Below are positions 18,375 to 27,263 of a stretch of 64,000 bases of DNA, piece after piece (positions within the stretch are counted from its first letter, which is position 1; the number at the start of each line of letters is the position of its first letter). Source of the DNA: Sediminibacterium sp. (GTDB lineage Bacteria; Bacteroidota; Bacteroidia; Chitinophagales; Chitinophagaceae). The position numbers and the translations under genes were made by a program. The stretch covers positions 248,001-312,000 of the forward strand of contig JAFWCB010000008.1 of NCBI GenBank assembly GCA_017537025.1, read 5' to 3'. The notes below the pieces were generated by a model. It had not been told where the DNA came from. It was given only the letters and a program-made list of their open reading frames with translations, and searched no databases.

Positions 18375-18383
18375 TAACTTTGC
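18375..18383 (+). promoter_or_regulatory. -7 promoter box of the arginine operon
   Basis: TAACTTTGC is a perfect TAnnTTTGC match. It ends seven bases before the ATG of the leader ORF at 18391, so the transcript would start almost at that ATG and cover the leader and downstream hairpin. The -33 element is not obvious. Confidence 0.55.
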
Positions 18384-18390
18384 GTTCTTA

Positions 18391-18495
18391 ATGAACGAAA
18401 CGATAAATTATATTATCCTCAATACTCCAAAAATGCCAAAAAGCACCTTCTGGAGCACGTTTATTTGCTTGCCGCGGCCCCGACGTGGGTTCTGA
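18391..18495 (+). CDS. Putative arginine leader peptide (34 codons)
   Basis: An ATG just after a consensus -7 box opens a 34-residue ORF whose end reads L-P-R29-P-R31-R32-G-F, stop. Arginine codons are CGG (18475-18477), CGA (18481-18483) and CGT (18484-18486). The stop TGA (18493-18495) is followed at once by TAG (18496-18498), and both stops lie in the 5' arm of a hairpin (18492-18527). The next gene starts the arginine biosynthesis cluster. This matches the architecture of ribosome-mediated attenuation, where stalling at scarce-amino-acid codons alters downstream RNA folding. The GC-rich codons near the end stand out in an AT-rich genome. No direct evidence of translation; inference from position and composition. 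Confidence 0.55.
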   Translation: MNETINYIILNTPKMPKSTFWSTFICLPRPRRGF

Positions 18496-18527
18496 TAGGA
18501 CGAGCAACTGGCACTTGCCCCTATCAG
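18492..18527 (+). promoter_or_regulatory. Leader hairpin of the arginine operon (candidate attenuator)
   Basis: CTGATAGG (18492-18499) pairs perfectly with CCTATCAG (18520-18527); inside it GCAA (18504-18507) pairs with TTGC (18515-18518). An alternative pairing exists: AGCAA (18503-18507) can pair with TTGCT (18465-18469) inside the leader ORF. A run of six T lies further down at 18551-18556, but 23 bases separate it from the stem, so a classical terminator is not evident. The hairpin may act on transcription or on translation from the downstream TTG. Confidence 0.45.
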
Positions 18528-18591
18528 TGAAAATTTCTCCGAAACTTTCCTTTTTTCAGGTAGCCACCTACAACACAAATCATATTTTATC

Positions 18592-19260
18592 TTGGAACAA
18601 TCGATAATAATTCGAGTAGCCAACCATAGCGATTCCCGTTATGCACATATCATCACTGATGAGATGGAAGCTTCTGCTAAAGCAAGAGGAACAGGCATTG
18701 CTAAACGAAGTCCTGATTACGTTGCCCAGAAGATGCAGGAAGGTAAGGCTATCATTGCTTTGTTGCCTGATGGTACTTGGGTTGGATTTTGCTATATAGA
18801 AGTGTGGGGGCATGAGGAATTTGTTGCCAATAGTGGATTGATAGTATCACCTCCATTTCGTAAAAGTGGTGTAGCAAAACAAATTAAACAAGCCATATTT
18901 AATCTTTCTCGAGAAAAATATCCAAATGCAAAAATATTTGGACTAACCACCGGGCTAGCTGTTATGAAAATTAATAGCGATTTGGGCTACGAGCCGGTAA
19001 CATATAGCGAGCTTACCGATGACGAAGAATTTTGGGCAGGTTGTAAAAGCTGTGTGAATTATGATATTTTGATGAGTAAGGAAAGAAAAAATTGCATGTG
19101 TACAGCTATGTTATACGATCCTGCAGATCATTATGAGCCAAAGGAAACTGCAGATGCTTTCAAAAAGAAATCGAAGTTATACGAACGATTTATGAAAATC
19201 AAGCAAAGTAAACTACTTCGATTATTCAAGAAAAGAATTACTTATTTATTCAGTATATAA
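18592..19260 (+). CDS. GNAT N-acetyltransferase of the arginine cluster (probable N-acetylglutamate synthase role)
   Basis: 222 residues starting at TTG; no in-frame ATG exists between the tandem stops at 18493-18498 and this codon. The GNAT core is seen in LIVSPPFRKSGVAKQIKQAIF (acetyl-CoA loop RKSGVA) and the N-terminal block EMEASAKARGTGIAKRSPDYV. Bacteroidetes arginine clusters begin with this acetyltransferase type, thought to acylate glutamate in place of classical ArgA or ArgJ. It lies nine bases before argG. The rare TTG start and upstream hairpin suggest controlled translation. If the pathway uses succinylated intermediates (see argF'), this enzyme would be the acyl donor step; that is inference. 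Confidence 0.78.
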   Translation: MEQSIIIRVANHSDSRYAHIITDEMEASAKARGTGIAKRSPDYVAQKMQEGKAIIALLPDGTWVGFCYIEVWGHEEFVANSGLIVSPPFRKSGVAKQIKQAIFNLSREKYPNAKIFGLTTGLAVMKINSDLGYEPVTYSELTDDEEFWAGCKSCVNYDILMSKERKNCMCTAMLYDPADHYEPKETADAFKKKSKLYERFMKIKQSKLLRLFKKRITYLFSI

Positions 19261-19269
19261 AAAATTATA

Positions 19270-20469
19270 ATGGCTTCTAAAAAATTAGTACTGGGGTTTA
19301 GTGGTGGTTTAGATACTACTTATTGTGCCTTGTATTTATCACAAGAAAAAGGATTTGAAGTGCATAGTGTGATTGTGAATACTGGGGGATTTTCTACCGA
19401 TGAGCTGGATAAAATTGAAAAGCATGCCTATGCATTAGGAGTTACCTCACATACAACAGTTGATGCAGTTAACTCATACTATAATCGTATTATTAAATAT
19501 CTCATATTCGGGAATGTATTGAAGAATAATACTTACCCCTTAAGTGTAAGTGCGGAAAGATTAAGTCAAGCTGTACATATTGCAGAACACGCAAAAAAAC
19601 TAGAGGCTGTTGCGGTTGCACATGGCAGTACCGGTGCCGGAAATGATCAGGTAAGGTTCGATATGATCTTCAACATTATGATTCCCGGAGTTGAGATCAT
19701 CACACCTATCAGAGATTTGAAACTAAGTAGGGAAGAAGAAATAACCTACTTGAAGGAGAAAGGAGTTGTCATGAATTTTGAGAAAGCGGCATATTCTATT
19801 AATAAAGGGCTTTGGGGTACAAGTGTTGGAGGTAAAGAAACATTATATTCAAAAGGATTATTACCGGAAGAAGCTTGGCCAACGCAAGTAACAAAATCCG
19901 GAACAGAAGAATTAATAGTTCATTTTGATAAAGGAGAAATTACAGGGGTTAATAACCAGCATTTTGATAACCCGGTAAAAGCCATTCAGTATATTCAGTC
20001 AATAGCCGGCCCTTTTGGAATCGGAAGAGATATTCATGTGGGTGATACAATCATAGGGATCAAAGGAAGAGTTGGATTTGAAGCGGCAGCACCCATGGTC
20101 ATTTTAAAAGCACATCATGCTTTGGAAAAACATGTGCTTACTAAATGGCAGTTAAGTTGGAAGGATCAGCTTTCCCAGTTTTATGGTAACTGGCTACATG
20201 AAGGGCAAATACTTGATCCGGTAATGCGCGATATTGAAGCCTTTTTAATTCAATCGCAAGAGCAAGTAACAGGATCCGTATTTATTCAGTTAATGCCTTA
20301 TCGCTTTCAAATTATTGGTATTGAATCTGCGAATGATTTGATGAGTAGCAAGTTTGGTAAATATGGAGAAATGAATAGCGGGTGGACAGGAGAAGATGTT
20401 CGTGGGTTCTCTAAAATTTTTGGTAACCAAACAGCAATTTATCACAATATTAAATCTACCGGGCAATGA
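19270..20469 (+). CDS. argG: Argininosuccinate synthase
   Basis: 399 residues. The ATP pyrophosphatase loop FSGGLDTT (10-17) and AHGSTGAGNDQVRFD (about 118-132) are diagnostic. It condenses citrulline with aspartate using ATP. Bacteroidetes enzymes are a divergent ASS branch, which explains differences from the enterobacterial type. Its last four bases (ATGA) overlap the start of argC, giving tight coupling. Confidence 0.94.
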   Translation: MASKKLVLGFSGGLDTTYCALYLSQEKGFEVHSVIVNTGGFSTDELDKIEKHAYALGVTSHTTVDAVNSYYNRIIKYLIFGNVLKNNTYPLSVSAERLSQAVHIAEHAKKLEAVAVAHGSTGAGNDQVRFDMIFNIMIPGVEIITPIRDLKLSREEEITYLKEKGVVMNFEKAAYSINKGLWGTSVGGKETLYSKGLLPEEAWPTQVTKSGTEELIVHFDKGEITGVNNQHFDNPVKAIQYIQSIAGPFGIGRDIHVGDTIIGIKGRVGFEAAAPMVILKAHHALEKHVLTKWQLSWKDQLSQFYGNWLHEGQILDPVMRDIEAFLIQSQEQVTGSVFIQLMPYRFQIIGIESANDLMSSKFGKYGEMNSGWTGEDVRGFSKIFGNQTAIYHNIKSTGQ

Positions 20470-21422
20470 TAAAAGTAGGTATTGTAGGTGGGGCAGGATA
20501 TACGGGAGGCGAATTAATTCGTTTATTAATTCATCATCCGAAGGTAAATCTTGTATTTGTTCAAAGCAGCAGCAATGCGGGAAATCCGCTTCATCAAGTT
20601 CATAAAGATTTATTCGGGGAAACTGATATCACATTTACTGCTTCATTAGATTTGGATGTTGATGTGATCTTTCTTTGTGTTGGGCATGGGAATGCTTTGC
20701 AATTTTTAAATAATAATCGGATCCCTGATCATATAAAAATTATTGACTTATCTCAGGATTTTAGGCTACAACAAAAATCGGTTTTTGGAAATCGTTCTTT
20801 TGTATACGGCTTACCTGAATTAAATAGAGATAAAATAGCCAACGCATCGAATATTGCCAATCCCGGATGCTTTGCTACGGCTATTCAGCTTGGGTTACTG
20901 CCATTAGCAAAAGAAAGCTTATTAAGTGATGTATATACCACGGGTATTACAGGATCCACTGGGGCGGGCCAATCGCTAAACCCAACTAGTCATTTTAGTT
21001 GGAGAGCTAATAATATTCAAGCTTATAAAACACTTAACCACCAGCATATTGCAGAGATTTCAGAATCTGTGAATGCCCAAGGTATTCATTTTGTGCCCTG
21101 GCGTGGCGACTTTACTAGAGGTATTTACGTTAGTTCCACATTCGATTGTACCCTTTCACAAGAAGCGTTATATGATTTATATCAAAATTTTTATAACGAT
21201 GCTGTATTTACACATGTTTCAGACACTATGATTGACTTAAAACAAGTAGTCAATACAAACAAATGCTTAATCCATATAGAGAAGGTGGGTAATAAGGCTG
21301 TAATACATAGCTGTATCGATAATTTACTCAAAGGGGCAAGTGGACAGGCATTACAGAATATGAATATTATGTTTGGTATAGAAGAAGGTGTAGGGCTGAA
21401 GCTGAAAGGGGTAGGGTTTTAG
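20466..21422 (+). CDS. argC: N-acyl-gamma-glutamyl-phosphate reductase
   Basis: 318 residues. NADP-binding GGAGYTGGEL (8-17) and the catalytic Cys135 in ANPGCFATA identify ArgC, which reduces the acyl-glutamyl phosphate to the semialdehyde. It overlaps argG by four bases. The last residues (EEGVGLKLKGVGF) are encoded by the first units of a 7-bp-period tract that continues past the stop, so the original C-terminus may have been replaced. Confidence 0.94.
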   Translation: MIKVGIVGGAGYTGGELIRLLIHHPKVNLVFVQSSSNAGNPLHQVHKDLFGETDITFTASLDLDVDVIFLCVGHGNALQFLNNNRIPDHIKIIDLSQDFRLQQKSVFGNRSFVYGLPELNRDKIANASNIANPGCFATAIQLGLLPLAKESLLSDVYTTGITGSTGAGQSLNPTSHFSWRANNIQAYKTLNHQHIAEISESVNAQGIHFVPWRGDFTRGIYVSSTFDCTLSQEALYDLYQNFYNDAVFTHVSDTMIDLKQVVNTNKCLIHIEKVGNKAVIHSCIDNLLKGASGQALQNMNIMFGIEEGVGLKLKGVGF

Positions 21423-21463
21423 GAGGGATTAGGTAAAAGCTGAAAGCCGAAAGGTGTGAGGGT
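21387..21463 (+). repeat. Heptamer-period tract running from the 3' end of argC into the intergenic region
   Basis: Eleven consecutive 7-base units can be laid out (for example GGCTGAA, GCTGAAA, AAAGCTG, AAAGCCG, AAAGGTG). AAGGTGTGAGGGTATA at 21451-21466 is an imperfect inverted copy of 21907-21923 on the other side of the four-helix-bundle gene. Confidence 0.65.
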
Positions 21464-21539
21464 ATAAATGCCGTGATTTGATTTTTAATTATAGTATTTA
21501 TACCTAATTATTTAAGTCTAGTATTGTTAGGTTTATGGA

Positions 21540-21905
21540 ATGAGAGATTATAAAACCTTAACTGTTTGGAGAAAAAGCCATGAGCAATATTTATTTATTA
21601 AAAAAAATATTTTAAATATGTTACCAGTAGAAGAGAAATATGATTTAAGAGCTCAATTATCGAGAGCTTCATTATCAATTCCTCTAAATATAGTAGAAGG
21701 TGCGGGACGTTTCTCGGAAAAAGAATTTGCTCATTTCCTTAATGTTTCACTAGGTTCAACTAATGAAGTTGATTACTGCTGTTTTGCAGCTTATGAATTA
21801 AACTATATTTCAAAAGAGCTATATATTTCAACTAATAAGATTTTAAATGAAATTAGAGCAATGCTTATTGTATTTATTAAATTTTTAAGAAATAAAATAT
21901 CCTAA
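21540..21905 (+). CDS. Four-helix-bundle protein (S23 / 23S rRNA intervening-sequence family)
   Basis: 121 residues, all helical. The start DYKTLTVWRKSHEQYLFI and the block YDLRAQLSRASLSIPLNIVEGAGRFSEKEFAHFLNVSLGS are the family signature. Relatives are encoded in insertions within 23S rRNA genes, and Avd of diversity-generating retroelements shares the fold. Here it sits between argC and argD, where it has no metabolic place. Both sides carry 7-bp-period tracts in opposite orientation; the stop codon lies in the right-hand tract. No reverse transcriptase or variable repeat is present. The gene and flanks look like an inserted cassette (inference). Confidence 0.88.
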   Translation: MRDYKTLTVWRKSHEQYLFIKKNILNMLPVEEKYDLRAQLSRASLSIPLNIVEGAGRFSEKEFAHFLNVSLGSTNEVDYCCFAAYELNYISKELYISTNKILNEIRAMLIVFIKFLRNKIS

Positions 21906-21947
21906 TCCTATACCTTACACCTTACACCTTAAACCTTATACCTTAGA
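21901..21947 (+). repeat. Heptamer-period tract (CCTTACA class) between S23-type gene and argD
   Basis: Five perfect-period 7-base units at 21913-21947 (CCTTACA twice, then CCTTAAA, CCTTATA, CCTTAGA), preceded by two 6-base relatives. The last base is the A of the argD ATG. The 11-mer CCTTACACCTT recurs inside argF' at 23602-23612. Confidence 0.8.
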
Positions 21948-23092
21948 TGAAACTATTCGACGTATATCCCTTAAATAATATTACGATTACAAAAGCACTT
22001 GGTTCTTATGTATGGGATAATAATGGTATTCAATACCTAGATATGTACGGTGGGCATGCCGTTATTAGCATCGGACATACTCACCCACATTGGGTTACAA
22101 GTATAGAAAAGCAATTGGAACAAATAGCTTTCTATTCGAATTCTATTATCATTCCCCTGCAACAACAACTAGCCGATAAACTAGCATTGCTTAGTGGTAA
22201 AACTGATTATCAATTATTTCTCTGTAATAGTGGGGCAGAAGCTAATGAAAATGCGCTTAAACTAGCTTCATTTCATACAGGCAGAAAAAAAATCGTTGCT
22301 TTTACTAAGTCTTTTCATGGAAGAACATCTTTAGCTGTTGCAGCAACCGACAATCCTTCTATTGTAGCGCCGGTTAATGAAACAGATAATATTATTTTTC
22401 TTCCATTTAATGATGAGCAAGCATTACAATCGCTATTTGATACAATTGGTAATGAAATTGCTGCAGTAATTGTAGAAGGTATTCAGGGTGTGGGAGGTAT
22501 TAATATGGCAACAGATAGTTTTCTGCAACTCATTCGCCAATTAACTACAAAATTTGGAGCTGTTTATATTGCTGATAGTGTGCAGTGTGGCTATGGAAGA
22601 AGCGGTCAGTTTTTTGCACACGACTGGGCAGGTGTTAATGCAGATATTTATTCTATGGCAAAAGGAATGGGTAATGGCTTCCCTATCGGCGGTATACTTA
22701 TCGCACCCCATATCCAACCTAAGCATGGCATGCTCGGAACAACTTTTGGTGGTAATCATTTGGCATGTGCTGCTGCATTAGCCGTGCTGGAAGTAATGGA
22801 GAATGAGAACTTAATTAGCATGGCCAAACAAAGAGGTATGTATTTAATGAATCAATTAAAATCAATTGATGGTATAGAAAATATCAGAGGGAAGGGATTG
22901 ATGATTGGTTTTGATGTTCCTGATTCTTTGAAAGGGCTAAAAAGAAAATTATTAGAAGAATATTTTGTATTTACCGGAGAGGCGAAACCCAATGTAATCA
23001 GGCTCTTACCTTCTTTGGCAATTTCCAGAAAACAAGTAGATGAATTTCTGGAAGCATTGAAGGAAGCCATACAATCAATAAAGGAAAATTAA
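21947..23092 (+). CDS. argD: Acylornithine aminotransferase (class III PLP enzyme)
   Basis: 381 residues. The substrate-side motif CNSGAEANENALKLA (about 97-111), DSVQCGYGRSG, and the PLP Lys239 in SMAKGMGNG identify a class III omega-transaminase; the operon fixes the role as ArgD. It converts acyl-glutamate semialdehyde to acylornithine using glutamate. The ATG abuts a heptamer tract, so no upstream initiation signal is left between it and the S23-type gene. The next gene follows after five bases. Confidence 0.92.
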   Translation: MKLFDVYPLNNITITKALGSYVWDNNGIQYLDMYGGHAVISIGHTHPHWVTSIEKQLEQIAFYSNSIIIPLQQQLADKLALLSGKTDYQLFLCNSGAEANENALKLASFHTGRKKIVAFTKSFHGRTSLAVAATDNPSIVAPVNETDNIIFLPFNDEQALQSLFDTIGNEIAAVIVEGIQGVGGINMATDSFLQLIRQLTTKFGAVYIADSVQCGYGRSGQFFAHDWAGVNADIYSMAKGMGNGFPIGGILIAPHIQPKHGMLGTTFGGNHLACAAALAVLEVMENENLISMAKQRGMYLMNQLKSIDGIENIRGKGLMIGFDVPDSLKGLKRKLLEEYFVFTGEAKPNVIRLLPSLAISRKQVDEFLEALKEAIQSIKEN

Positions 23093-23097
23093 ACAAC

Positions 23098-24069
23098 ATG
23101 AAGCAGTTCATTTCTGTAAACGATGTGCCCGATATCAATCGGCTTGCTGCTAAAGCGCTACAATATAAAAAACAGCCTTTAGCGGATAAGCTATTAGGGA
23201 GCGGTAAAAGAATTGGATTACTTTTTTTAAATCCTAGTTTAAGAACCAGATTAAGTACCCAGGTTGCAGCTGCTAATTTGGGTATGGAAGCGATAGTTTT
23301 TAATGTTGACAAGGAGGGTTGGGCATTGGAATTTGAAGAAGGGGCCATTATGAGTGGTAACACTGTTGAACATATCAAAGATGCCGCCCCTATTTTAGGT
23401 TCTTACTTTGATGTGCTTGCTATACGTACGTTTCCTTCTTTAAAAAATAAAGAGGAAGACTATAGCGAGATGTATATACAACAGTTTATTAAATATGCCC
23501 GTGTACCAGTAATTAGCTTGGAAAGCGCTACATTACACCCACTCCAGTCGTTAACAGATATTATCACCATCAAAGAAAGACTAGATTCTTTACACCCTAA
23601 ACCTTACACCTTTAAGCCTAAAATTGTTCTCACCTGGGCCCCTCATATCAAGCCTTTACCACAATGTGTGGCCAATAGTTTCGCACAGTGGATCAATAAA
23701 TGGGGAGAAGCCGATTTTGTAATTACACACCCTATCGACTACGAATTAGATGAGCAATTTACCCGTGGTGCTACTATTACGCATAATCAAGATGAAGCAC
23801 TAGCAGGTGCCGATATTGTATATGTAAAGAATTGGAGCACATTTACCGACTACGGAAAACTGTATGAAAACGATCCGGCATGGATGCTCACTCATGAAAA
23901 ATTATCGACTACCAATAATGCCGGAGTAATGCACTGTTTACCTGTAAGAAGAAATGTGGAGTTAAGTGATGAAGTATTGGACGGTAACCATAGTCTAGTA
24001 ACTGAGCAAGCCAGTAATAGAGTATGGGCAGCCCAAGCAGTTTTAAGCGAGATTATAAATGCTAAATAG
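23098..24069 (+). CDS. argF': N-succinyl/N-acetyl-ornithine carbamoyltransferase
   Basis: 323 residues. FLNPSLRTRLSTQ (43-55) replaces the STRTR carbamoyl-phosphate loop of ordinary ornithine transcarbamylase, as in the acyl-ornithine family. MHCLPVRRNVELSD is the family's C-terminal loop. At the position that sets specificity (Pro90 in the Bacteroides fragilis succinyl enzyme, Glu92 in the Xanthomonas acetyl enzyme) this protein appears to have Val90 (NTVEH). Published swaps of Glu to Ser, Pro, Val or Ala favour succinylornithine, so a succinyl route is likely (inference). Bases about 23588-23622 are a 7-bp-period tract read in frame as part of SLHPKPYTFKP, probably a surface insertion before the strand KIVLTWAPH. 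Confidence 0.92.
   Translation: MKQFISVNDVPDINRLAAKALQYKKQPLADKLLGSGKRIGLLFLNPSLRTRLSTQVAAANLGMEAIVFNVDKEGWALEFEEGAIMSGNTVEHIKDAAPILGSYFDVLAIRTFPSLKNKEEDYSEMYIQQFIKYARVPVISLESATLHPLQSLTDIITIKERLDSLHPKPYTFKPKIVLTWAPHIKPLPQCVANSFAQWINKWGEADFVITHPIDYELDEQFTRGATITHNQDEALAGADIVYVKNWSTFTDYGKLYENDPAWMLTHEKLSTTNNAGVMHCLPVRRNVELSDEVLDGNHSLVTEQASNRVWAAQAVLSEIINAK
23588..23622 (+). repeat. Heptamer-period tract inside argF' coding sequence
   Basis: Five units (CTTTACA, CCCTAAA, CCTTACA, CCTTTAA, GCCTAAA) within the reading frame. It shares the CCTTACA motif and an 11-base identity with the intergenic tract before argD, 1.7 kb upstream in the same operon. Confidence 0.7.
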
Positions 24070-24074
24070 ATGGT

Positions 24075-24875
24075 ATGCAAGAATTAATAGTTATTAAAAT
24101 TGGTGGAAATATAATTGATGATGAAAATTCATTACTATCATTTTTAGTAACACTTGCACAATTACAACAAAGTTCCAAGCAGAAATTTATCCTTGTTCAT
24201 GGCGGCGGAAAACTGGCCACAAAAATGGCTACTGATATGGGTGTTGAGCAACAAATGATTGATGGGAGAAGAATAACCGATGCAGAAACCTTGAAAATAG
24301 TTACCATGGTGTATGCCGGGTTTATTAATAAAAATATTGTAGCCCAGTTACAAGCAAATGGAACTAATGCGATTGGGTTCACCGGAGCCGACGGGAATCT
24401 TATTAAAGCACATAAAAGAATACATCCAACAATAGATTACGGTTTTGTTGGAGATATTGATGCTGTTAATGAGGATGCCATTATACATTTACTTCATCAA
24501 TTCGATATCTTAGTAGTCGCACCTATAACACATGATGGACTGGGACTATTATTGAACACGAACGCAGATACTATTGCACAAACTATTGCTACCTCACTTG
24601 CTAAAAAAAGGATCGTTAATTTGATATATTCATTCGAAAAGGAAGGAGTATTGTTAGATATTAATAAAGAAGATTCTGTAATACCAGTATTGAATAAAAC
24701 ATATTATGCTACGCTCAGGTCGCAAGGAGCTATATTTGCCGGTATGCTGCCTAAATTAGATAATGCTTTTAATGCCATCGATAAAGGCGTAAAACAAGTT
24801 ATAATTGGTAAGGCTGAAAAATTAACTCAATTGATTGCAGGTGAAGCAGGTACAAGTATTGTATATGAGTCATAA
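24075..24875 (+). CDS. argB: Acetylglutamate kinase
   Basis: 266 residues. KIGGNIID (8-15) and VHGGGK supply the phosphate-binding loops of the amino-acid kinase fold; DGRRITDAETLKIVTMVYAG and GFTGADGNLIKAHKR are ArgB blocks. It phosphorylates acyl-glutamate. It starts five bases after argF' and overlaps argE by 11 bases. The N-terminal helix associated with arginine-inhibited hexameric forms is absent, so feedback inhibition cannot be assumed. Confidence 0.93.
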   Translation: MQELIVIKIGGNIIDDENSLLSFLVTLAQLQQSSKQKFILVHGGGKLATKMATDMGVEQQMIDGRRITDAETLKIVTMVYAGFINKNIVAQLQANGTNAIGFTGADGNLIKAHKRIHPTIDYGFVGDIDAVNEDAIIHLLHQFDILVVAPITHDGLGLLLNTNADTIAQTIATSLAKKRIVNLIYSFEKEGVLLDINKEDSVIPVLNKTYYATLRSQGAIFAGMLPKLDNAFNAIDKGVKQVIIGKAEKLTQLIAGEAGTSIVYES

Positions 24876-25932
24876 ACAAGAATTATATCAACCAGCTATT
24901 TCTTTATTACAGCAATTGATTGCTACTCCGTCTTTTAGTAAAGAAGAGGATAAAACTGCTGATATTATTACTATTTATTTAGAAAAATCAGGTGTAAAAA
25001 CAAGCCGATATTTAAATAATATATGGGCTGTCAATAAATATTTTAATGCTTCTAAACCTACTATTTTATTAAACTCTCATCATGATACCGTTAAACCTAA
25101 TAAGGGATATACACGAGATCCATTTGAGCCAGAGATAGTTGATAATAAACTATTCGGATTAGGTAGTAATGATGCAGGAGGTTGTTTGGTATCACTGATA
25201 GCTTGTTTTTTATATTATTACGAGGAAAAAAACTTAAAATATAATCTAATACTAGCTGCCACAGCAGAAGAAGAGATATCAGGGAAAAATGGCGTAGAAG
25301 TTTTATTACCTGTTTTACCACCGATCGATTTTGCAATTGTGGGCGAGCCAACACTCTTGAATTTAGCTATAGCAGAAAGAGGATTATTAGTAATTGATGC
25401 GGTGGTAAAGGGAAGGGCTGGCCATGCTGCACGTAATGAAGGGGATAATGCCATCTATAAAGCTATTCAAGACATTCAATGGATTCAGCAATATCAATTT
25501 GATAAGGTTAGTGATTTTTTAGGTTCTGTAAAAATTACCGTTACTTCATTTCATACAGATAATAAGCAACATAATGTGGTTCCTGCTTCAGCAGAATATC
25601 TCTTGGATATTAGAGTGAATGAGTTATATACTTTCGAAGAAGTTATAACCATTCTTCAACATTCTTTGCAGGCTACTTTAACACCAAGAAGTACTCGATT
25701 GAAAAGTACTTCCATTCCATTAGAACACCCTATTGTTCAATCAGGTATTGCTCTTGGTAAAACCTGTTATGGTAGCCCTACCACAAGTGATAAAGCATTA
25801 ATGCCTTTTCCCGCTTTGAAAATAGGTCCTGGAGATAGTGCACGGAGTCATACTGCCGATGAATTTATCTTTATAGAAGAAATTGAACAAGGGATTGATA
25901 CTTATATTAATTTGCTTAAACCATTAATATGA
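24865..25932 (+). CDS. argE: M20-family acylornithine deacylase
   Basis: 355 residues from the ATG at 24865, inside the argB tail (11-base overlap); an upstream TTG-like extension has no homology. The M20 metal site shows SHHDTVKPN (H73, D74), GSNDAGG, and the TAEEEISG glutamates; the dimerisation domain begins at GRAGHAA. In the cluster it removes the acyl group from acylcitrulline or acylornithine. After an acyl-ornithine transcarbamylase the true substrate should be acylcitrulline. It overlaps argH by ATGA. Confidence 0.88.
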   Translation: MSHKQELYQPAISLLQQLIATPSFSKEEDKTADIITIYLEKSGVKTSRYLNNIWAVNKYFNASKPTILLNSHHDTVKPNKGYTRDPFEPEIVDNKLFGLGSNDAGGCLVSLIACFLYYYEEKNLKYNLILAATAEEEISGKNGVEVLLPVLPPIDFAIVGEPTLLNLAIAERGLLVIDAVVKGRAGHAARNEGDNAIYKAIQDIQWIQQYQFDKVSDFLGSVKITVTSFHTDNKQHNVVPASAEYLLDIRVNELYTFEEVITILQHSLQATLTPRSTRLKSTSIPLEHPIVQSGIALGKTCYGSPTTSDKALMPFPALKIGPGDSARSHTADEFIFIEEIEQGIDTYINLLKPLI

Positions 25933-27263
25933 AACTCTGGTCAAAATCAGGAACTGCAACTGCATCAGTCGTAGAATCATTTACGGTAGGAAAAGATAAA
26001 GATTTTGATGCTATGTTAGCTCCATTCGATGTACTAGGCTCTATTGCACATGCAAAGATGTTAGGTCATGTAGGGTTGTTAACTGATGCAGAATCAGCGC
26101 AATTAATTAATGCTTTAAAAAATATTTATATAGAAGTGAATGCAACAGATTTTGTAATACCATCATCTGTTGAAGATATTCATTCATATGTTGAGTTATT
26201 ATTAACACAGCGAATTGGAGAAGCGGGGAAAAAAATTCATAGTGCCCGCAGTCGTAATGATCAAGTATTAGTTGATATAAAACTTTTCTTAAGAAATGAA
26301 ATCAGAGAATTGGTTTCTGCTATTCAACCTTTTTTTGAATTATTACAAACGCAAAGTGAAACCTACAAAAATCATTTATTACCCGGGTATACACATTTGC
26401 AGTTGGCTATGCCATCCTCATTCGGGTTATGGTTCGGCGCTTATGCTGAAAGTTTAACTGATGATATGATTCAAGTGCAAGGAGCCTATCAGGTAGTTAA
26501 TAAAAATCCACTTGGATCTGCGGCCGGTTATGGATCCTCTTTTCCTATCAATAGAACACAAACAACGGAGTTGCTTGGTTTCGAATCCCTACATTATAAT
26601 GTGGTATATGCACAAATGAGCAGAGGTAAAACAGAAAGAGTAGTTGCGGCTGCCCTTGCCAGTGTGGCAGATACCTTATCAAGATTGAGTATGGATATTT
26701 GTTTGTATCTGAATCAGAATTTTAATTTTATATCTTTTCCGGCTCATCTTACTACCGGATCCAGTATTATGCCACATAAAAAAAACCCGGATGTATTCGA
26801 ATTGATTAGAGGCTATTGTAATAGACTCAAAGCATTGCCTAACGAAATAATGTTGATGACCACCAATTTACCATCTGGATACCAACGCGATTTGCAATTA
26901 CTAAAAGAGCATATCTTCCCTGCATTTACTGAAATAAAGAAATGTATTGAAATGGCAGGCTTAATGTTGTCTAATATTCAAATTCAAAAGGATATTGTTG
27001 AGGACGAAAAATATCGATATATGTTTAGTGTTGAAGAAGTTAATAAGCTCGTATTACAAGGAATCCCTTTTAGGGATGCCTATAAGCAAATCGGAGACGC
27101 TATCGAAAAAGGAAATTTTACGTATAGTACAACTATTCATCACAGTCATGAGGGTAGTATGGGAAATCTTTGTAATGAAGATATTGCCAAACAAATGCAA
27201 AAAATAATAGCTTCTTTTAATTTTGAAAAAACAGAAGCTCATTTAGCAGCACTTTTAACTTAA
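25929..27263 (+). CDS. argH: Argininosuccinate lyase
   Basis: 444 residues. The fumarase-superfamily signature GSSIMPHKKNPD (about residues 277-288), with the catalytic Ser loop, and HSARSRNDQV are clear. It cleaves argininosuccinate to arginine and fumarate, the last step. It overlaps argE by four bases and closes the cluster, 21 bases before the FKBP gene. Confidence 0.95.
   Translation: MKLWSKSGTATASVVESFTVGKDKDFDAMLAPFDVLGSIAHAKMLGHVGLLTDAESAQLINALKNIYIEVNATDFVIPSSVEDIHSYVELLLTQRIGEAGKKIHSARSRNDQVLVDIKLFLRNEIRELVSAIQPFFELLQTQSETYKNHLLPGYTHLQLAMPSSFGLWFGAYAESLTDDMIQVQGAYQVVNKNPLGSAAGYGSSFPINRTQTTELLGFESLHYNVVYAQMSRGKTERVVAAALASVADTLSRLSMDICLYLNQNFNFISFPAHLTTGSSIMPHKKNPDVFELIRGYCNRLKALPNEIMLMTTNLPSGYQRDLQLLKEHIFPAFTEIKKCIEMAGLMLSNIQIQKDIVEDEKYRYMFSVEEVNKLVLQGIPFRDAYKQIGDAIEKGNFTYSTTIHHSHEGSMGNLCNEDIAKQMQKIIASFNFEKTEAHLAALLT

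Follow-up and report, generated by a model that had tools for sequence, protein, structure and literature searches.

The arginine operon and its leader ORF

The window analyzed here, a stretch of 64,000 nucleotides from a Sediminibacterium sp. genome (3.19 Mb in 29 contigs; completeness 94.74%), carries an arginine biosynthesis operon on its forward strand. The first gene encodes a GNAT acetyltransferase (18592..19260, +), and it is followed by argG, argC, an ORF at 21540-21905, argD, the gene for N-acetylornithine carbamoyltransferase, argB, the gene for an ArgE-like deacylase, and argH (19270..27263, +). Profile matches place argC, the carbamoyltransferase, argB, and argH above an NCBIfam cut-off, and argG, argD, and the deacylase above Pfam cut-offs only. 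The order of the first two genes is widely shared: argG lies directly 3′ of the GNAT gene, no more than 600 bases away, at 105 of 109 loci. The four exceptions are three contigs that end too early and one gap of 914 bases. The closest named relative of the GNAT gene among the matches listed is that of locus L001, labelled uncultured Flavihumibacter (97% identity), and the next closest are mostly labelled Sediminibacterium or Chitinophagaceae. Its start codon is TTG (at 18592), and TTG or GTG was also seen by eye in many relatives, so that translation of this gene is possibly kept weak. The ORF between argC and argD encodes 121 amino acids, and its product presumably resembles a small four-helix-bundle protein.

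Upstream of this operon, the position in which trp- and his-type attenuators precede their cognate biosynthetic genes, is a leader ORF (18391..18495, +) that runs from an ATG at 18391 to a TGA at 18493-18495 and encodes the peptide MNETINYIILNTPKMPKSTFWSTFICLPRPRRGF. An earlier note, made from the sequence alone, had described a 34-codon ORF with an Arg-Pro-Arg-Arg end and three Arg codons in its last six residues, and that is indeed what is present. The peptide terminates in PRPRRGF, with arginine at residues 29, 31, and 32, encoded by CGG (18475), CGA (18481), and CGT (18484) (together 18475..18486, +). Translation might alternatively begin at another in-frame ATG, at 18433, and the TGA is directly followed by an in-frame TAG. 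A Pfam search with the peptide, at E values up to 10, gave no match. A putative Bacteroidota -7-like promoter box, TAACTTTG (18375..18382, +), was read from the sequence, the consensus of which we take to be TAnnTTTG; the box that the earlier note had placed seven bases before the ORF is there, but the spacing is eight bases.

The C-terminal domain of ArgR (PF02863) was found in none of 40 genomes, comprising the genome under study and 39 relatives (24 of the genus and 15 of the order), and in 8 of 14 controls.

A hairpin around the leader stop codon

Folding and comparison together define a hairpin, which we call P1 (18492..18527, +), with the leader UGA (18493-18495) and the in-frame UAG in its 5′ arm. 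The doubled stop, TGA TAG, had been placed inside the 5′ arm of an 8-bp hairpin by the earlier note, and this was borne out: the outer stem comprises 8 bp between CTGATAGG (18492-18499) and CCTATCAG (18520-18527). The inner stem that it had also proposed exists, with an identity that depends on how it is derived. Comparison favors GCA/TGC (18504-18506 with 18516-18518), whereas the minimum free energy fold of the window alone gives GGC/GCC. The internal loop, ACGA/C, is common among copies and varies in some. The 40-nt stretch holding P1 folds at -12.8 kcal/mol, compared with a shuffle mean of -7.1 (z -2.64; equaled by 2 of 200 shuffles). The fold energy alone is mildly unusual; conservation among relatives puts the hairpin far beyond chance.

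Conservation among close relatives

To follow the leader and P1 across genomes, we took the best 80, by similarity, of at least 572 relatives carrying the GNAT gene and searched upstream of that gene with a regular expression that allowed up to two substitutions. Of the 80, 68 have P1 ahead of the acetyltransferase-argG operon, which gives 69 copies with that of the window. One further relative (L007), whose contig begins inside the leader region, was left out, leaving 79 assessable; 11 of these lack the P1 motif, yet all 11 have Arg-Arg near the leader end (RRPRI, RVRR, or WVRR before the stop). At least two Arg codons are found among the final eight leader codons in all 79, so that the comparison with relatives, which the earlier note had named as a test of its reading, came out in its favor.

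The reading frame that closes at the UGA of P1 is open, with a start at least 20 codons away, in 69/69 copies, compared with 2/69 and 0/69 for the other two frames. All 69 copies have at least two Arg codons (range 2-4) among the final eight, so that arginine accounts for 33.2% of these codons versus 3.4% of the preceding 16. Adjacent Arg-Arg is found in 67 copies and UGA followed by UAG in 66, and CGA (94) and CGT (56) are the most frequent of the 183 Arg codons. PRPRRGF closes the leader peptide both in the window and in L001, and the two peptides differ widely before it. In 42 of the 69 copies, compared with 20.0 expected from shuffles, a box resembling the -7 element is found at a distance of 60-190 nt upstream of P1.

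After removal of six duplicates, 63 distinct copies of P1 remained for pair statistics. Its 12 pairs hold in 97.4% of cells, and 4 of the 12 change on both sides, whereas pairings slid to an offset as a control are paired in 32-45% of cells. Because seven of the eight outer pairs are invariant, they speak neither for nor against the stem, which is supported by the one outer pair that varies (UA/UG/CG) together with the inner stem (GC/AU, AU/CG). From these comparisons, an Arg-codon leader with its stop inside a hairpin is well supported; they likewise support the view that the leader is kept as an ORF, with an Arg-rich end and its stop in the 5′ arm of the conserved P1.

At three loci of one genus (g23; L120, L121, and L122), P1 is present with few Arg codons near the stop; the leaders end in PQRCPLC (L120) and PQRCCPLF (L121), and none was found in L122. 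These leaders may be drifting, or may be sensing something else.

Such conservation of the hairpin, in which P1 and its ACGA/C internal loop are very highly conserved in most family copies (with the ACGA missing from the copies before proC described below), could also be expected if P1 bound arginine or a protein and the ORF were incidental. We consider this very improbable. It leaves the conservation of the frame and of the Arg codons unexplained, the internal loop is variable (L062, G022, and G189), and the 11 relatives without P1 retain the Arg leader. Nor does Rfam offer a known ligand-binding RNA: at the gathering score the window contains only a tRNA, with no T-box or riboswitch match in the leader, and ten related loci gave no match. 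Below threshold, matches in the leader were to eukaryotic snoRNAs or algC (E 0.21-2.5).

Ribosome position and the proposed mechanism

We then folded 10 of the 69 loci with an imposed ribosome footprint that, counted from the first base of the P-site codon, covers 12 nt upstream and 15 nt downstream, dimensions that are an approximation. With the ribosome at an Arg codon at -12, -15, or -18, P1 formed with a probability of 0.81-1.00 in all ten loci; with the ribosome at the stop codon, the probability was 0.00 in all ten. A stall at the second Arg codon (-9), which is possible in eight of the ten, already weakens P1 (0.01-0.46), and this counts against the explanation that we favor.

That explanation, which we regard as probable, is that the leader peptide and the stop-codon hairpin control the arginine operon through the position of the ribosome. 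A shortage of charged Arg-tRNA would make the ribosome wait at CGA-CGN, leaving it a few codons short of the stop, and P1 could then form ahead of it. When arginine is plentiful, the ribosome would reach the UGA, and its footprint would open P1. The hairpin, perhaps through contact of its loop with the next element, would then set expression of the operon. Premature transcription termination would be the likeliest output, intrinsic where a hairpin with a T-run follows and possibly Rho-dependent elsewhere. Such a leader sensor could substitute for the absent ArgR.

Proline leaders upstream of proC

In three of the five genomes of one genus, the P1 model gave a second, weaker match (E 3e-4 to 7e-4), and each marks a Pro-codon leader with a P1-type hairpin before proC (L116:1509-1614; L117:3776-3671, minus strand; L118:3756-3648, minus strand). 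The downstream gene of L116 is proC by its match to TIGR00112 (225.8 bits; cut-off 196.75), and those of L117 and L118 resemble it by eye. The leader peptides, MTGYNFHNASFVPCPPPGC, MTDHLSHISFSFPSPAPGC, and MMKRDIIHIAFFVPCPPPGC, each closed by a stop codon, are followed by the hairpin CTGACAGG...CCTGTCAGTGAA, in which the ACGA internal loop is missing. The best evidence that codons are what the leader senses is the presence of Pro codons, in the same frame, ahead of a proline gene. The proC cases, from three genomes in one genus, may represent a single event, and at the threshold used there was no Pro leader upstream of the window genome's own proC.

The exchange of Arg for Pro, with the same hairpin, also bears on the idea that free arginine arrests the ribosome at the stop codon when the nascent peptide ends in PRPRRG[CF], with no sensing of codon supply. 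Most copies do have a C-terminal RRGC, RRGF, or RRxPGC, as a nascent-peptide arrest might lead one to expect, but the ends diverge among lineages (RRPRI, RVRR, IRR, and RRRPVF), and together with the proC leaders this makes the idea, in our judgment, quite unlikely.

The output step

The earlier note had called the locus a putative arginine attenuator. The Arg leader and the stop hairpin before the arg operon are present and kept in relatives; regulated termination, the other half of that claim, found no counterpart here, since two scans detected no terminator in the window between the leader and the first gene of the operon. The best hairpin with a T-run reaches only -1.1 kcal/mol, and 5 of 20 shuffles were as good. 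The same scanner found an 11-pair terminator-like site before the genome's own hisG, which makes its absence from the window count against our preferred explanation. Among the relatives, hairpins with a T-run at or below -3 kcal/mol, 13-33 nt past P1, occur in only 13 of 69 copies (4.6% in shuffles), which also weighs against it.

The hisG locus of the genome (L184; G000:C17) deserves mention in its own right. Upstream of the ORF at 1339-2208, which is hisG, is a His leader, MNKNIHTHHHFLPIG followed by its stop codon, and the 11-pair terminator-like site lies directly before the gene, so that, judged by its sequence, it is a textbook-looking His attenuator.

The earlier note had further proposed that TTGCT in the leader could pair with AGCAA in competition with the inner stem. 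This pairing exists in the window, but by string search it is kept in only 4 of 69 copies, and we rejected it as a switch. With no conserved TTGCT/AGCAA switch and no terminator in the window, these results do not support the term attenuator in its strict sense of regulated termination. A second ORF, starting at the GTG that closes P1 (GTG in 69/69 copies), was likewise rejected: it reaches the first gene in 30/69 copies, but another frame does so in 34/69, and many of these ORFs are very short.

Two loci of another family have what looks from sequence like a more classical attenuator. Downstream of their Arg leaders, which end in RSPRRQPNTAG (L125) and RSLRRRPYAAG (L131), is a strong terminator-like repeat, and the end of the leader is able to pair with the 5′ arm of this repeat. 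Of the four stall positions in L131, one flips the repeat to an antiterminator (0.98). The three stall positions in L125 give no switch, and equilibrium folds of that locus show none, a further point against the preferred explanation.

P1 changes with the imposed ribosome position, and any mutually exclusive partner for it in the window would be a candidate at most. Duplex folding picked CAGGTAGCCA (18557..18566, +) as a candidate partner of the P1 loop, TGGCACTTG (18509-18517). A general pairing of the loop with downstream sequence (0/5000 permutations; 54 representatives) was withdrawn because, in a test of 78 representatives, a reversed-sequence control was equally strong (z -5.3 vs. -4.8; reverse-complement control, z -2.5). 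One clade has a P1 loop of the form NNACC and a downstream element of the form GGAYTGGTNN, and in it the base beside this ACC/GGT core is Watson-Crick paired in 27 of 47 copies (11.5 expected; 0/20000), with all four pair types represented. When near relatives are collapsed, the count is 12 of 23 versus 6.4 expected (P 0.0105), with an offset control at P 0.0138, so that the loop-to-downstream contact is only a lead. No signal of pairing with the downstream region came from the leader, from the Arg-codon segment, or from the 3′ arm of P1.

The same sensor might instead act through another output, with ribosome position affecting how stable the mRNA is or how well the first gene is translated, as described for Salmonella speF, where decay is reported to involve RNase G and the ribosome-binding site to be inaccessible (PMC6386406). 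The lack of a terminator in the window and the TTG start of the first gene both speak for such an output. Against it are the distance from the end of P1 to that start (64 bases), the T-run hairpins of the 13 copies, and the strong terminator-like repeat in L125 and L131; on balance, we consider it unlikely. 

Range in the family, class, and phylum

Within the family, a covariance model built on P1 and the sequence around it matched 92 of 294 genomes; in a sample of 395 genomes from the phylum it matched 8, all of them in the same family. The pattern search agreed in the family (91 of 288 genomes), and the backwards pattern gave none among the matches listed. A weak model match in G248 (E 0.0048) was rejected as an element, since it lies inside an unrelated ORF. 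A palindrome at G029:C6:257960-257997 fits the P1 pattern on both strands, and its interior is unlike that of the arg copies.

To look beyond P1, we took the best 30 of 71 GNAT-carrying genomes of the class (of 198), removed our own locus and L124, a P1 locus, and added the 11 relatives without P1. The resulting set of 39 P1-less loci includes 26 that belong to other families. In 32 of the 39, three or more of the final 12 codons of an upstream ORF encode Arg (2.2 expected from shuffles), and in 14, four or more do so (0.2 expected). At L068, the automatic listing had picked another ORF, and the actual leader ends in LLRRPRI. A hairpin at or beside the stop is strong in L144, L149, L126, L139, and L048 and weak or missing in the others, with a mean fold z at the stop of only -1.14. 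The Arg leader is thus class-wide in the loci examined; because hairpins are so uneven among these loci, the stop hairpin is less certainly so. In several class loci the Arg codons directly adjoin the stop, where stalling and stopping are hardly distinguishable, and this too counts against our preferred explanation.

A broader version of that explanation would be a modular sensor across this class of Bacteroidota, in which the stop codon lies in a hairpin, the preceding codons pick the amino acid (Arg with argG, Pro with proC), the loop kisses a second element in place of an exchange between antiterminator and terminator, and the whole replaces ArgR. We put this forward tentatively, as a possibility about which we are more doubtful than hopeful.

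Comparison with known systems

The arg leader resembles trp- and his-type attenuators, including the genome's own his leader, in having a leader ORF with pathway codons before the cognate operon. It differs in that hisG has a terminator-like site past its leader, whereas the window's arg leader has none and its stop is built into P1. The Bacteroid-trp RNA (RF01692), which we take to be a Trp leader, gave no match in the genome and none in the window at the gathering score. It is likewise a cis-regulatory RNA of Bacteroidetes (PMC2864571), but its model does not match the genome that carries our leader.

In the actinobacterial cys leaders, as characterized in PMC1262725, a run of pathway codons lies near the stop with no obvious terminator, and Rho is weakly suggested; the account given there reports no conserved terminator-like hairpin, whereas conservation in the arg leader is strongest at its stop hairpin. 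Attenuation by leader peptides ahead of amino-acid operons, which are not named in the passage concerned, is mentioned in a flavobacterial transcriptome study (PMC9723704). Among the open-access papers listed by our searches, none describes in its title or abstract an arginine leader peptide for an arg operon of Bacteroidota. To our knowledge, Arg leader peptides of arg operons have seldom been described. The leader bears on how arginine synthesis is controlled where ArgR is absent, and its many natural variants, with a natural swap of Arg for Pro, make codon sensing, the role of the stop within the hairpin, and the output each directly testable.

Another close likeness is to the speF leader of Salmonella. 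Its ORF, orf34, has two consecutive Arg codons and a hairpin downstream of the stop; in the model presented in PMC6386406, a ribosome at the stop blocks this hairpin, one waiting at the Arg codons permits it, and the output involves Rho as well as the RNase G decay and ribosome-binding site noted above. The differences are plain: going by that description, the Arg codons of orf34 occupy positions 12-13, well away from the stop, and the gene controlled encodes ornithine decarboxylase. The orf34 peptides form the family DUF2618, which the window peptide does not match, and the genes downstream of the latter are arg genes. Nevertheless, as far as the published model is set out there, the two share a short ORF with Arg codons in which a ribosome at the stop, as opposed to one at the Arg codons, decides the fate of a hairpin, as we have modeled for P1.
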